Shown here one piece after another: positions 1 to 5,916 of a DNA stretch of 33,966 nucleotides (positions within the stretch are counted from its first letter, which is position 1; every line of letters begins with the position of its first letter). A program made the translations under genes and the position numbers. The notes under the pieces were generated by a model. That model was not told where the DNA came from, made no database searches, and saw only the letters and a list, made by a program, of their open reading frames with translations. Where the stretch lies: positions 1 to 33,966 of the forward strand of contig JAKLFG010000023.1 in NCBI GenBank assembly GCA_022711315.1. The letters are read 5' to 3'. The stretch comes from a bacterium (lineage in GTDB: Bacteria > UBP6 > UBA1177 > JAKLFG01).

Positions 1-2606
1 AAATCGGTGTCACAGGCCCAGTCGCAGTCGGCGGGCAGTTCCCAGCCGCCTTCGGTGGTGTAGTGGATGGTGACATTCGCGATGATGTCGCTGCTGTTCA
101 CCGGATTGCCGTTATCCTCGTCGCACGATACATCCTTCTGATCGATGCAGGCGTCCCCTTCAAAAACATAGTCGATCTCACAGGTCAGGTAGAACATCCG
201 CACCGACCCTATGAGAGAGGTCGAATCGTTCATAAACCCCCCGTATGCATTACCGCGCACCCTCACATAGTAGTTTTGATAGAACGGCAGGGAAAGACCG
301 GCGATCTCCCAACCGCCCGATATCCTATTGCCTATGCCAAGGAAGGTCCAGTTGACCCCATCGGACGATCCTTCAAAAAAGACATGATGCACCTCCGGTC
401 CCGAACCGCTCCTTATCCACTGAACGGTCGTACCGTCTGAAGAGACCGCGATCTCCTGCAGCGCCGCCTCATCAGCGCTCAAGCGGGCTATCCGGTTTCT
501 CGTTTCTCCCCCTATGGAGGCGAAATCGCCACCCGCGACGATCTTACCATCCGCCTGTATCGCAAGAGCATAGACAGAGGAGTCGGCATTCGGGTCGAAC
601 GCGGCATCTAGTGACCCGTCAGAGTTGAGTTGGGCTATGTGGTTTCGGGTCACACCTCCGAGTGTGGTGAAGTTGCCGCCGGCGACGATCTTGCCGTTCG
701 TTCTAATAACTACGGGATAAACCTGTCCATTTGCGCTGAGATTGAAAGCCGTATCTACGGAACCGTCCGCATTGAGACGGGCTATCCGGTTGCGCGCCAC
801 ACCGCCTATGGTTGAAAAGGCACCACCCACGAGTATCTTGCCGTCCGCCTGTACCGCTACTGAACGGACAAAATTGTCTGCGTTTGTGCTAAAAGCCGTA
901 TCCAGGGTGCCGTCCGCATTCACGCGGGCGATGCGGCTTCGCGTCTGTCCGCCGATCGTTGCGAAGGCGCCGCCCACCAGTATCTTTCCATCGGATTGCA
1001 ACGCCAGAGCACTGATATAGTTGTCCGCACCGATATCAAAGGTCGTATCCAACGAGCCATCCGCATTGAGTCGGGCCAGTCGATTCCGTGTGACACCGCC
1101 GATGGTGGTAAAAGAGCCACAGACAACGATCTTACCGTCGGGTTGAACGAGCGCTCCGAACACCGCGTCATTCGCATTCGGATCGAAAACCGTATCCAAT
1201 GACCCGTCAGTATTGAGGCGGGCCAGCCGATTCCGCGTCGTACCTTCGATAGAGGTAAATTCCCCTGCCAAAAGCATGTTACCGTCGGCCTGCAGGGCAA
1301 GCACATAAACCGTGCTGTTCACCGACGGGTCAAAGGTCGCATCGAGCGTTCCATCGGCATTGAGGCGGGCAATATGGTTGCGTGTAGTGCCACCGATGGT
1401 GGTAAATGAACCACCTACGAGTATCTTGCCATCGGCCTGCAGTGCAAGGGCAGAGACCGTATTGTTCGCACCGGGATCCAAGGTCGTCTCGACCGTGCCG
1501 TCGATATTGAGGCGGGCGATACGGTTTCGTGCCTGACCGCCGATGGAGGTGAAGTTACCGCCCGCGAGTATCCCGCCGTCGAGCTGTAGGGCGAGGGTGT
1601 AGACCCAGTAATTCGCGTCGGGGTTGAAGGTCGTATCGGCGGTGCCGTCGGCATTGAGACGGGCGATATAGTTCCGTGTCTGACCGCCGATAGAAGTGAA
1701 GGCGCCGCCTGTGAGTATCTTACCGTCGGGCTGTGGGGCGAAAGCATAGACCCCGCTGTCCGCGTCGGGATCGAAGGTCGTATCGAGCGTTCCATCGGCA
1801 TTGAGGCGGGCTATCCGGTTGCGCGCCTGACCGCCGATGGAGGTGAAGTCGCCACCCACGAGTATCTTACCGTCGGGTTGTAGGGCGATGGCTCTGACCC
1901 AGTTGTTCGCGTTGGGATCGAAGGTCATATCGACTGTGCCGTCGGCATTGAGGCGGGCTATCCGGTTGCGCGCCTGACCGCCGATGGAGGTGAATTCACC
2001 ACCCACGAGTATCTTACCGTCGGGCTGTGGGACAAGGGCATGGACCCAGTTGTTCGCGCCGGGATCGAAGGTCGTATCGGCGGTGCCGTCGGCATTGAGG
2101 CGGGCGATATAGTTCCGCGTCTGACCGCCGATGGAGGTAAAGTAGCCACCCGCGAGTATCTTACCGTCCGGCTGTAGGGCGAGGGCATGGACCCAGTCGT
2201 TCGCGTTGGGATCGAAGGTCGTATCGGCTGTGCCGTCGGTATTGAGGCGGGCGATATAGTTCCGCGTCTTACCGCCAATAGAAGTGAAGGCGCCGCCCGC
2301 GAGTATCTTATCGTCGGGTTGTAGGGCGAGGGCATTGACCCACTTGTCCGCGTTGGGATCGAAGGTCGTATCGACTATGCCATCGACATTGAGACGGGCG
2401 ATATAGTTCCGTGTCTGACCGCCGATAGAAGTGAACCCGCCGCCCGCGAGAATCTTACCGTCGGGCTGTAGGGCGAGGGCTCTGACCCATTCGTTCGCGT
2501 TGGGGTTGAATCCGTCATTCGCGGACGCCGCCTGCGTCATGACCGGCAGGAGCAGAAGCAGGGCGAGGAACGCCACTTTCCCAACCGTTATTGTCTTTTT
2601 TTCCAT
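1..2606 (-). CDS. secreted delta-60 repeat protein (3' end off window)
   Basis: An unbroken frame of 868 codons runs from an ATG with a strong ribosome binding site (GGAGGA) to the left edge, so the C-terminus is missing. Residues 1-29 form a Sec signal peptide ending TQAASA. Residues 30-715 are 14 tandem 49-residue repeats with the core LQPDGKILVGGxFTSIGG and RNxIARLNADGTxDTTFDP, the delta-60 repeat family (TIGR02608), which builds beta-propeller-like extracellular domains. After the repeats come a beta-rich segment (SDGVNWTFLG, then GLSLPFYQNYYVRVRG), as is usual in this family, and a Cys/Asp-rich part at the edge. The protein is probably exported or surface-exposed; its ligand is unknown. 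A sigma70-like promoter lies upstream. The true C-terminus, and whether it carries the GCGC tail of its neighbours, cannot be seen here. Confidence 0.93.
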   Translation of the reverse strand, partial: MEKKTITVGKVAFLALLLLLPVMTQAASANDGFNPNANEWVRALALQPDGKILAGGGFTSIGGQTRNYIARLNVDGIVDTTFDPNADKWVNALALQPDDKILAGGAFTSIGGKTRNYIARLNTDGTADTTFDPNANDWVHALALQPDGKILAGGYFTSIGGQTRNYIARLNADGTADTTFDPGANNWVHALVPQPDGKILVGGEFTSIGGQARNRIARLNADGTVDMTFDPNANNWVRAIALQPDGKILVGGDFTSIGGQARNRIARLNADGTLDTTFDPDADSGVYAFAPQPDGKILTGGAFTSIGGQTRNYIARLNADGTADTTFNPDANYWVYTLALQLDGGILAGGNFTSIGGQARNRIARLNIDGTVETTLDPGANNTVSALALQADGKILVGGSFTTIGGTTRNHIARLNADGTLDATFDPSVNSTVYVLALQADGNMLLAGEFTSIEGTTRNRLARLNTDGSLDTVFDPNANDAVFGALVQPDGKIVVCGSFTTIGGVTRNRLARLNADGSLDTTFDIGADNYISALALQSDGKILVGGAFATIGGQTRSRIARVNADGTLDTAFSTNADNFVRSVAVQADGKILVGGAFSTIGGVARNRIARLNADGSVDTAFNLSANGQVYPVVIRTNGKIVAGGNFTTLGGVTRNHIAQLNSDGSLDAAFDPNADSSVYALAIQADGKIVAGGDFASIGGETRNRIARLSADEAALQEIAVSSDGTTVQWIRSGSGPEVHHVFFEGSSDGVNWTFLGIGNRISGGWEIAGLSLPFYQNYYVRVRGNAYGGFMNDSTSLIGSVRMFYLTCEIDYVFEGDACIDQKDVSCDEDNGNPVNSSDIIANVTIHYTTEGGWELPADCDWACDTD
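462..2519 (-). repeat. 14 tandem 147-bp units encoding delta-60 repeats
   Basis: Fourteen in-frame units of exactly 49 codons follow the signal peptide with no insertions or deletions between units. Units 1-7 (about 1491-2519) resemble each other most closely, with FTSIGGQ/K in every unit. Units 8-14 are more varied (FTTIGG, FATIGG, FASIGG, and one EGTTRN). This suggests recent amplification or gene conversion at the N-terminal end. Confidence 0.93.
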
Positions 2607-2660
2607 CGGGTTTTCCTCCTTGTTAATATCAACAACATCGTCGATATCTGGTCAGGAATA

Positions 2661-2704: not shown

Positions 2705-3979
2705 TTAGAACGCCAGCGAACAGCCGCACCCATTGTCGGCAGGTTTGTCGGTGTCGGCGCCGGGAATGAAGGCATCTTCGTCGCCGAGCAGTTCGTCGCC
2801 CGCCTCGTCGGGGACCTCGTTATCGGTCACGGCGGGATCGGTGTCAACGATATCCTTATCTGAAGGCGACAGATCTTCCTCGGGCAATTCATCAATATCG
2901 GGCATGGCCGGCTCATCATCCATAGTCATCCACTTTGCGACGAAAGGACTGCTTTTGCCCCCGGCGGTCGAAAATTTACCACCTACTAAAAGATCTCCCT
3001 CTTCGTCAATGGCAAGGGCATAGACACTCCCGTCCACGCCGCTCCCCAACGGATGCCACGCGGCCCCGTCCCACCGGGCAATGCTGGCCGCCTCCATGTC
3101 GGCGGCGGTGGTGAAATGTCCGCCAACATAGAGATCTCCATTCTCATGGACCGCAATGGTATCGACCTCGCCATTCATCGCGCCGCCCAGAACACTCCAT
3201 GCAGTGCCGTCCCAACGCACTACCCGGTTCGCCGCGGGGACGCCATCTATCCCGAAATATCCGGCAGCGTAGAGTATGCCGTCATTGTCGACCATCAACA
3301 TCTTCGGCGCATTATCCAAACCGTTCCCAAGGGTCGTCGCAGTGGTGCCGGTGAGTTTCACGATATGGTTCACCGCGATATTGTTGGCGGCGGTGAAGTA
3401 TCCTGCGGCGTAGAGAGACCCCGGACCCTTGTTCGCAAGGGCGGTCACCTCGCCGTTGAATGAGCCGATGGTCGTCCATGTTGAACCGTTCCAAAGGTTC
3501 ACTTCATAGAACCACTGTCGTCCCTGGTATCCCCCGGTATCGCCGATGGCGGCATATATGTTTCCCTCCTCATTGGAAACAAGAGCCGTAACATTCCCGC
3601 TTTCGACGGCGCTCCATGCGGCGCCGTCCCACCGGGCGAGATCGTCTACCGCGATCCCCCCGGCGTTCTGGAAATAGCCGCTGGCGAACAGCGTTCCGGC
3701 ACCATCCATAGCCAGATGCCACACGACATTGTCGACTCCCGTGCCGAGCGGATACCATGTACCGCTCGAAATATCCAGTCGGGCAATGTTCGATGCCGTG
3801 ACGCCGTTCACCGCCCCAAAGGTGCCGCCGATGTAGAGATCCTCTCCTTTACACACCATGGCGTTCACTGTTTCGTTGCCGAAGGCCCCGTTATTGATCG
3901 ATACCCACCGTTCATCGGATTCAGCGGCGTTCAACAAAGAGCATAGGAACAAGAACAGCAGAAGACATGAGCGGTCCAT
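2705..3979 (-). CDS. secreted propeller-repeat protein with acidic GCGC C-terminal tail
   Basis: A 424-residue exported protein. I chose the ATG at 3979 because GAGGG precedes it and the residues after it are a signal peptide (MDRSCLLLFLFLCSLLNAAES); the longer frame would run into the upstream gene. The body is about seven units of roughly 45 residues with the pattern WDGxAWxxLGxGVDGxVxAL, then GxLYVGGxFTxAxxxxxxxIARWDG. These are kelch-like or Rax2-like propeller blades, distantly reminiscent of the delta-60 repeats next door. After residue about 360 there is a Glu/Asp-rich linker, then the last residues DNGCGCSLAF. There is no lipobox, so the protein is not a classical lipoprotein. It lies 35 bases behind the preceding gene and shares its tail almost exactly, so the two are probably co-transcribed and functionally linked. 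Binding partner unknown. Confidence 0.88.
   Translation of the reverse strand: MDRSCLLLFLFLCSLLNAAESDERWVSINNGAFGNETVNAMVCKGEDLYIGGTFGAVNGVTASNIARLDISSGTWYPLGTGVDNVVWHLAMDGAGTLFASGYFQNAGGIAVDDLARWDGAAWSAVESGNVTALVSNEEGNIYAAIGDTGGYQGRQWFYEVNLWNGSTWTTIGSFNGEVTALANKGPGSLYAAGYFTAANNIAVNHIVKLTGTTATTLGNGLDNAPKMLMVDNDGILYAAGYFGIDGVPAANRVVRWDGTAWSVLGGAMNGEVDTIAVHENGDLYVGGHFTTAADMEAASIARWDGAAWHPLGSGVDGSVYALAIDEEGDLLVGGKFSTAGGKSSPFVAKWMTMDDEPAMPDIDELPEEDLSPSDKDIVDTDPAVTDNEVPDEAGDELLGDEDAFIPGADTDKPADNGCGCSLAF
2714..2824. repeat. 111-bp direct repeat, copy 1 (tail coding)
   Basis: This stretch matches 4024-4134 with only 6 differences in 111 bases by manual alignment. It encodes the shared tail from NEVPDEAGDE to GCGCS. 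Outside it the two genes are unrelated at base level, so the tail behaves as a copied module. Confidence 0.9.
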
Positions 3980-4014
3980 CGGATCCCTCATAGATGAAGA
4001 AAAAGGTGTCCTGT

Positions 4015-5841
4015 CTAGAAAATCAGCGAACAGCCGCACCCGTCGTCGCCCGGTTTGTCGTTGTCGGCGCCGGGAATGAAGGCATCTTCGTCCCCGAGCA
4101 GTTCGTCGCCCGCCTCGTCGGGGACCTCGTTATCCACGACGGTGGTATCGGTGACCGTCGTGTCGGCGACAGCACTATCCTTGTCGGCCGGCGCGGCGTC
4201 ATCCGGGGTCACGGTATCGTCCCCGAGCGGGGTGCCGTCGTCGAGGATGACCGGCGCATCGTCGGTCTCTTCCTCGTCTATCAGGATGTCATCGGTCGCT
4301 ACATCGTCGACGACCTCCTCGTCCGGCTCCTCCTCGTCGACGACCATCTCGTCCACCAAGGTCTCATCGGTGACGGTCTCGTCGGGCAGGATGTCGTCGG
4401 GGACCGGGGTCTCCTCGCGTTCGATGGTGAGGGTGAAGTCGCCGGTGCCGCTGAGTGACTCTACCACGAGCGTCGCGTTGCCGCCGATGAGCGGCGTATA
4501 GGTGAACGAATCGGTGTCGCCGCCGGTGTTGAGACAGGTGGCGTTGGTGAAAATGACGCTACAGATGGGGATGATGGCGATGAAGCCGGTCCAGCCGCCG
4601 TGGCGTTCGATCGATATCGTGTATTCGACCCCGCCGTCCATGTCGACATGAACGACGACATCGCCGAGCGGCGCACTGTTCGTCGGGCAGTTGGTGCCGT
4701 AGGTGGTCAGGTGGCTCGTCCGGCCGACGGTGGTGCTCTCCAGCACATACGGGAAGGTCGATGCGTCGTAGGCATCGGAACAGGAGCCGATGATCTCGGT
4801 GCCGAGGCATTCGCCGTTGGCGCAGGTCTCTTCGTCGGTGTAGTCGTAGAGGTCCTCGCAGGAGATACCGTTGGTCGCGGTGTAGTCCTCGGGAGGGCAG
4901 ATGTCCGAATAACCGTCACATTTTTCGGGGGCATCGCAGGTGCCGGTCGAGGGGCGGCAGATGTCATTCGCCGTCAGGTATTTGTCCTCGGGGCAGGGGC
5001 CGCCCGCGCCATCGCAGTATTCGATGGCATCGCAAAGGTGGCCGATCGCCCGGTCGCGACACGGGGTGGTGTCGAGCTCGAAGTTGTCAAGGCACTGACC
5101 CGCGTCGTTGCAGGTATCGGGCTTGTTGCACACGGTATTGGTATTATCGCCGCACGGGGTGTCCTTGACCTCGAAGTTGTCGAGACATGCGCCGTCGCCG
5201 TCGCAGTAGTTCGGGCCGTCGCAGTCGGTGTCGGTCTGATCGCCGCAGGGGGTGAATTCGGCGGTGGGGCCGTTCACGCAGCCGAAGACAGTATCGCACA
5301 CATCGTTGGTGCATTCGTTATCGTCGTCGCAATCAATGGTCGACCAGTCGTATATGCCGCCGTCCTGCAGTTCACACAGCACCAGATCGCCGTTGTCGCA
5401 GTACTGTTCCCCGGCGACGCAGATATCGGGATCGTTGCATTTCTCTTCCCAATCCCCCGTGACGCATTCCTCGTAGGCGACGCCGTTCCCGTTCTTTCCG
5501 CAATCGGTGCCGAGCAGACGGATGTTGCCATCGGTGCAAGTGAACTTCGCATCAACGCTCTTCACCTCGTTCATCGTCACCGCGCAGGCGCCGGAGCCGG
5601 TGCAGGCGCCGCTCCACTCGACGAAATGGCTCATGAGGTCGGCGGTGGCGGTCAGGGTCAGGGCCGTATTCTCCTCATAGGAAAAAGAACAGGTCTCGCC
5701 GCAGTCGATGCTGAACTGATCGGCCACCGTGCCGTCACCCGAACCGCTCTTGGTGACGGTCATGGTGTAATACGCCGGTTCGGCAAGAAGCAGGCACGGT
5801 ACGAGCGCGACGAGAAAAAGAACAAAAAACACCCTTTTCAT
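4015..5841 (-). CDS. secreted Cys-rich multidomain protein with acidic GCGC tail
   Basis: A 608-residue exported protein. The start at 5841 has GGGAGGA and begins a signal peptide (MKRVFFVLFLVALVPCLLLA). Residues about 24-100 look like a bacterial InlB-type B-repeat (YTMTVTKSGSGDGTV, LTLTATADLMSHFVEWSGAC). Residues about 100-345 are Cys-rich, disintegrin-like segments (CDDDNECTNDVCDTVFGC, TPCGDNTNTVCNKPDTC). Residues about 355-455 resemble a pre-peptidase C-terminal beta domain (VEYTISIERHGGWTGF). A linker of more than 100 Asp/Glu/Thr/Val-rich residues then leads to DDGCGCSLIF. The many paired cysteines suggest oxidative folding outside the cytoplasm. It is the first gene of a likely two-gene unit with the propeller protein. 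No enzymatic motif is visible, so it is probably structural or adhesive. Confidence 0.9.
   Translation of the reverse strand: MKRVFFVLFLVALVPCLLLAEPAYYTMTVTKSGSGDGTVADQFSIDCGETCSFSYEENTALTLTATADLMSHFVEWSGACTGSGACAVTMNEVKSVDAKFTCTDGNIRLLGTDCGKNGNGVAYEECVTGDWEEKCNDPDICVAGEQYCDNGDLVLCELQDGGIYDWSTIDCDDDNECTNDVCDTVFGCVNGPTAEFTPCGDQTDTDCDGPNYCDGDGACLDNFEVKDTPCGDNTNTVCNKPDTCNDAGQCLDNFELDTTPCRDRAIGHLCDAIEYCDGAGGPCPEDKYLTANDICRPSTGTCDAPEKCDGYSDICPPEDYTATNGISCEDLYDYTDEETCANGECLGTEIIGSCSDAYDASTFPYVLESTTVGRTSHLTTYGTNCPTNSAPLGDVVVHVDMDGGVEYTISIERHGGWTGFIAIIPICSVIFTNATCLNTGGDTDSFTYTPLIGGNATLVVESLSGTGDFTLTIEREETPVPDDILPDETVTDETLVDEMVVDEEEPDEEVVDDVATDDILIDEEETDDAPVILDDGTPLGDDTVTPDDAAPADKDSAVADTTVTDTTVVDNEVPDEAGDELLGDEDAFIPGADNDKPGDDGCGCSLIF
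4024..4134. repeat. 111-bp direct repeat, copy 2 (tail coding)
   Basis: Second copy of the tail module at 2714-2824, with 6 mismatches. Both copies lie at the extreme 3' end of their genes, in the same reading frame and orientation. Confidence 0.9.
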
Positions 5842-5887
5842 GAATATCCTCCCTTTCTCTACGGGTAAAAAACATCTTAATGGATCG

Positions 5888-5916
5888 ATGCTAATAAAGA
5901 ACGGATCGGATGTCAA
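5888..5916 (-). promoter_or_regulatory. sigma70-type promoter for the Cys-rich/propeller gene pair
   Basis: On the minus strand, TTGACA (5916-5911) and TAGCAT (5893-5888) are 17 bases apart. The -35 box overlaps the bioF stop codon, so this promoter begins exactly where the upstream operon ends. Confidence 0.65.

Follow-up and report, generated by a model that had tools for sequence, protein, structure and literature searches.

A short helix-less cysteine tail on exported proteins of a UBP6 bacterium, probably a minimal variant of the MYXO-CTERM class of sorting signals

Why do two neighbouring secreted proteins with unrelated bodies end in almost the same acidic tail, with the same cysteine motif directly at the stop codon? 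The two genes in question, here called A and B, lie in a stretch of 33,966 nucleotides (the window) from a bacterium of the UBP6 lineage and are laid out as follows.

4015..5916, minus strand: open reading frame of gene B, a secreted protein with an InlB B-repeat domain and cysteine-rich (disintegrin-like) repeats, then acidic linker and tail; likely start at 5841
5782..5841, minus strand: signal peptide of gene B, MKRVFFVLFLVALVPCLLLA, without lipobox
4042..4419 (approximate limits), minus strand: acidic linker of gene B, from the translation
4018..4041, minus strand: short tail of gene B, GCGCSLIF, abutting the stop
2705..4039, minus strand: open reading frame of gene A, a secreted protein with a beta-propeller body (Rax2/Reg_prop/DUF5122 repeats), then acidic linker and tail; likely start codon at 3988 or 3976
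3920..3988, minus strand: signal peptide of gene A, MRDPMDRSCLLLFLFLCSLLNAA, without lipobox
2732..2920 (approximate limits), minus strand: acidic linker of gene A, probably disordered, from the translation
2708..2731, minus strand: short tail of gene A, GCGCSLAF, abutting the stop
2706..2843, minus strand: copy 1 of a 138-nt repeat, 89% identical to the copy at 4016..4153
4016..4153, minus strand: copy 2 of the 138-nt repeat

The first-pass annotation of this DNA had described two adjacent proteins with unrelated bodies that share the ending GCGCSLxF at the stop and lack a lipobox, and these observations hold, the signal peptides of both being of the ordinary kind. From the translations, the product of gene B ends in GADNDKPGDDGCGCSLIF and that of gene A in GADTDKPADNGCGCSLAF. 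The near-identity of the last 37 or so residues was also seen correctly (4 of 37 residues differ), but the 111-bp segments encoding them differ at 9 positions and not at the 6 originally counted. The 138-nt repeat is a recent copying of linker and tail. At 1..2650 of the window, also on the minus strand, lies a third secreted gene, with signal peptide MEKKTITVGKVAFLALLLLLPVMTQA and repeats of 147 nt (49 residues) that carry a GGGFTSIGGQT-like motif; its frame stays open for 883 residues up to the contig end and, as its C-terminus falls outside the window, it may also bear the tail.

Is the tail a peculiarity of this pair? A search of the genome (2.67 Mb, 83% complete) for GCGC-type ends, the check proposed at the outset, returned about 28 proteins that end in this core on bodies that are otherwise mostly unrelated, a count that rests on searches and may be low. 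The recurrence is far beyond chance, and the possibility that the tail occurs only in the two window genes is thereby ruled out. Among the 28 tabulated tails, which typically end in GCGCSLxF at the stop and usually follow an acidic linker, 26 contain CxC and two a single cysteine. The residue after the last cysteine is serine in 24 and the next one leucine in 23, and phenylalanine occupies position +4 in 19. Four residues follow the cysteine in 24 of the 28, the stop codon falling 3–5 residues behind it overall, and a few tails (SLI, SLTG, VLVM) do without the terminal F or W. The shared pattern can thus be written as an often acidic linker, then [GS]C, S or T, two hydrophobic residues and F, W or L at the stop. 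The proteins that carry it include beta-propellers, DUF11 proteins, a metallophosphatase, a Golvesin/amidase protein and others, and an N-terminal signal peptide, called with a simple rule on hydrophobicity and by visual inspection, is present in all 20 tail proteins with an intact 5' end. Two giants of 1862 and 2296 residues (L098 on contig C30 and L105 on contig C58 of genome G000) bear an N-terminal lipobox in addition, so the tail cannot simply replace N-terminal lipidation; these two would be anchored at both ends if lipobox and C-terminal cysteine were both lipidated.

How far does the tail extend beyond this genome? NCBIfam tag models match neither the window proteins nor the isolated tail. 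A scan of 84,980 species genomes found 25 stretches of DNA encoding GCGCSLxF followed by a stop; every stretch with an acidic linker comes from one of four metagenome-assembled genomes of this family, and the remaining ones, in short frames or without linker, look like chance. With a model of the tag, the family's five genomes yield 26, 25, 23, 10 and 21 copies (per-genome tail counts in four other members are 10–25), and the rest of the order yields few. A second model detects single-cysteine variants elsewhere in the order, such as SSGCSLVL, SDGCSMLFI and RGCSITTI, and such tails predominate in genus g4. Since these single-cysteine versions exist, the last cysteine is the constant residue. 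Moreover, the tail is kept between families of the order on orthologous bodies. In f4, the only other family of the phylum sampled, neither tag model found such tails.

What kind of signal does the tail represent? The same genomes encode DUF11 proteins of about 1000 residues with a full MYXO-CTERM-like tail, consisting of CxC[ST]hh (h, hydrophobic), a helix and arginines. The MYXO-CTERM model TIGR03901 matches these full-tail proteins in much of the order and passes its curated cut-off in five genomes; they are tandem paralogs, four each in genomes G000 and G004, with ends such as GCGCSTVGDTTTASSALFLLLPALFLLLRRKISRS. Behind the last cysteine, short tails continue with S/T/A/V, then L/V/M, any residue and F/W/L/G/M, and full tails with S/T/A, a hydrophobic residue (or T), V/I/T and a small residue. 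The relation between both types is seen most directly in a short-tail protein of 634 residues (contig C54) and its full-tail paralog of 1071 residues (contig C25), which are 63–65% identical (63% over residues 14–633 of the 634); the alignment ends at CxCS[VL][VI], at the penultimate residue of the short protein, where the paralog adds AGEGDEPPAWIVLLAAALAALFPFLRRRTTA. Among 36 homologs of the full-tail protein with a complete C-terminus, gathered by body sequence alone and with tail labels corrected by eye because the script missed some helices, the full tail occurs in 23 and the short tail in 12, and one protein has neither. On a tree of the bodies the tail type has to change five times, and at least four of these changes are forced by well-supported branches. 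Behind the stop codons of 28 short-tail genes no hidden helix was found in any frame, the single flag being the signal peptide of the next gene, and truncated or frameshifted MYXO-CTERM genes are therefore ruled out. As the tails switch on homologous bodies and no helix is encoded behind the stops, the short tail is a natural alternative to the full tail and not a broken copy of it. MYXO-CTERM had initially been set aside for want of a helix and arginines; both are indeed absent from the short tail, but since either tail can be found in the same place on homologous proteins within these genomes, the short tail is best seen as a truncated MYXO-CTERM variant, and MYXO-CTERM is its closest relative. 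Of the earlier proposal of an undescribed C-terminal sorting tag, the genome-wide tag on exported proteins with a near-invariant cysteine remains, but not its independence of known classes: the tail probably belongs to the MYXO-CTERM class of surface-sorting signals, as a minimal form without the helix.

Comparison with described systems sharpens this placement. In Myxococcus xanthus the MYXO-CTERM (TIGR03901)/MrtX system likewise comprises dozens of signal-peptide proteins with an invariant cysteine, set in a generic GCGC motif close to their C-terminus, and the experimentally studied tails all have a helix, which is credited with keeping the substrate at the membrane (PMC11980579). The genome analysed here also encodes a myxosortase-like CPBP protease and a type II secretion secretin. 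In contrast to MYXO-CTERM, the short tail has neither transmembrane helix nor arginine-rich end, stops mostly four residues past the cysteine and mostly with F, and has no NCBIfam match, and the protease lies below the MrtX and Mrt_core cut-offs. JDVT-CTERM/MrtJ and Synerg-CTERM/MrtS also combine an invariant cysteine with a dedicated CPBP protease, and both protease models match the protease here, but their tails, as far as known, have a three-part architecture with a helix. The eukaryotic CaaX box resembles the short tail in being a short C-terminal motif of cysteine and hydrophobic residues without helix, served by the protease Rce1, which removes aaX from prenylated CaaX proteins and belongs to the same CPBP/Rce1 family (PF02517). 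It differs in having three residues after the cysteine and not four, and since a signal peptide directs the tail proteins out of the cytoplasm, their modification by a cytosolic prenyltransferase is improbable. Finally, the acidic lipoprotein export signal of Bacteroidetes (PMC5080379) places an acidic stretch beside the lipid-carrying cysteine of surface lipoproteins, but it follows an N-terminal lipobox cysteine, whereas here a far longer linker precedes a C-terminal one.

A protease that could act on such tails had been proposed as something to look for, and a myxosortase-like CPBP protein was found in nearly every sampled genome of the order. PF02517 matches occur in every genome of the order, and wherever the protein was read the protease is of the PEEFFFRG type and single-copy, except in G003 (65% complete), where the second CPBP gene alone was found. 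All catalytic motifs are present (EExxxR as PEEFFFRG, FxxxH as FGVAH, HxxxN as HTVAN; PF02517 53.5 bits). In four proteins scanned, the best NCBIfam matches are all myxosortases, namely MrtP with 85–91 bits, Mrt_core with 81–85, MrtC with 74–83 and MrtJ with 61–67, and the MrtS model also matches with 58–71 bits. The curated cut-offs were missed throughout (250 for MrtP, 100 for Mrt_core NF040914, 180 for MrtX NF040593, which scored 45–55), and because every score lies under its cut-off, the protease is termed myxosortase-like only. Nothing exceeded the cut-off of MrtX itself; the protease found is another member of the Mrt-like group. The family's second CPBP gene is unrelated and, in its G003 copy (L127), has no Mrt match, and a search of solved structures by sequence returned no match for the protease.

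Is the protease linked to the tails? In G000 it is followed on the minus strand by an FKBP isomerase, the 634-residue short-tail protein and a short-tail protein of 509 residues, and in G001 and G002 by the FKBP gene, one further gene and a short-tail protein; given the relatedness of these genomes, this linkage counts as one observation. The protease locus of G004 contains no short-tail gene, and in other families the protease does not adjoin tail genes either. More broadly, cysteine-type CTERM substrates with full and short tails are present in members of the order. The co-occurrence is imperfect, because f4 has a related myxosortase-like CPBP protease (L226:3665-4357 in G026, MrtP 104 bits; L227:2-304 in G025) and none of these tails was found there.

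Which enzymes could attach a lipid and move the proteins outward? Usually a genome contains one Lgt-family gene, whereas in the 28 genomes of the phylum PF01790 counts 3–7 per genome. The secretin GspD of type II secretion exceeds its cut-off in 25 of these 28. In G000 the Lgt-family genes comprise one near LspA, a second canonical copy, two divergent ones and a regulator fusion. The latter (L220:3547-7275, contig C52; homologs L224 and L225) encodes 1242 residues with an Lgt-family membrane domain, regulator-type propeller repeats, Y_Y_Y and an AraC-type DNA-binding domain and, by its domain content, appears to be a transcription regulator that is bound to the membrane and includes an Lgt-like domain. 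As an Lgt-like enzyme has been put forward by Guo et al. for the missing acyltransferase step of MYXO-CTERM (PMC11980579), the Lgt paralogs are candidate acyltransferases only. In addition, about ten N-terminal lipoproteins of the genome have a lipobox cysteine, a short polar stretch often with K/T and then the same kind of acidic linker (for example AAC, then DGTKTTKNDADQLPTDDLAADGDLLTDDLIPDEEEPDE), and the tail proteins show the reverse order of body, acidic linker, short K/T/D stretch and cysteine. Acidic residues beside the lipid cysteine are a surface-export signal in Bacteroidetes (PMC5080379), and by analogy these mirror-image acidic lipoproteins support a lipid on the tail cysteine.

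How could a tail without helix work? The tail protein would be exported by Sec, whereupon the last cysteine would be lipidated by a membrane acyltransferase, possibly one of the Lgt-family enzymes, of which there are several, and the lipid would take the place of the helix as membrane anchor. Trimming of the SLxF tetrapeptide by the CPBP protease may follow, in the way Rce1 acts on prenylated CaaX proteins, and the protein would reach the surface, probably via type II secretion, the acidic linker serving as spacer. Lipidation of the last cysteine is the step that we consider reasonably likely; surface display through type II secretion has about even prospects, and trimming of SLxF by the myxosortase-like protease may occur at somewhat less than even chances. 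Because the short tail has no helix, lipidation would precede the intramembrane cut, as it does with CaaX proteins and Rce1. The whole could tentatively be described as an exported CaaX-like lipid-anchor system in bacteria, in which a helix-less cysteine tail would be lipidated outside the cytoplasm and trimmed by an Rce1-family myxosortase.

Alternatively, the cysteine could be lipidated and anchor the protein while the tail stays uncut, SLxF being the recognition site of the acyltransferase and the protease serving the helix-bearing paralogs only. A short tail offers no helix in need of removal, its cysteine core is identical to that of the full tails, and the protease is linked to short-tail genes in part of one family only; yet the linked gene is of the short-tail and not the full-tail type, and CPBP relatives such as Rce1 cleave just such short peptides behind a lipidated cysteine, and this reading appears rather unlikely. 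The CxC motif, common as it is in this genome beside an acidic stretch, might instead form a disulfide, a metal site or an envelope cross-link and make the tail a redox or metal device. This is very unlikely, given the single-cysteine tails in this genome, their dominance in genus g4 and the same CxC ahead of the helix in full MYXO-CTERM-like tails; the metal-binding tag considered in the first-pass annotation is likewise weakened by single-cysteine tails across the order. The terminal phenylalanine and the fit of G-C-S-L-x-F to a loose pattern of G-x-x-hydrophobic-x-aromatic recall the signal by which BamA recognises beta-barrels of the outer membrane, and the tail could route its proteins through the BAM machinery, but the constant residue is cysteine and not phenylalanine, as the sister-lineage ends listed above illustrate, the linker is acidic without beta strand, and homologs have a helix tail at the same place, which leaves this idea highly improbable. 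Local duplication of a low-complexity acidic end, spread by gene conversion and without further function, would account for the window pair with its 138-nt repeat and for a third copy on contig C21 that shares 78–100% of linker and tail with the pair, but most other tails keep the cysteine core only on diverged linkers, the tail is conserved between families on orthologous bodies, and its genome-wide spread rules out duplication as the whole story and leaves this reading next to no probability.

What would a minimal MYXO-CTERM variant mean? To our knowledge, based on Guo 2025 and NCBIfam, descriptions of prokaryotic C-terminal sorting signals that membrane proteases process include a transmembrane helix and a basic end. 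A helix-less tail that occurs naturally and can take the place of the full one on homologous bodies touches a question of the myxosortase field, whether the cysteine is lipidated before the cut; since little other than a lipid could keep such a tail at the membrane, it predicts a lipid-first order. The multiple Lgt paralogs offer a short candidate list for the missing acyltransferase. Moreover, as the tag escapes NCBIfam, these genomes contain a group of putative surface proteins that goes undetected. If true, the CaaX-like system would be an intermediate between the helix-bearing sorting signals of prokaryotes and the CaaX boxes of eukaryotes, and would imply lipidation before proteolysis.
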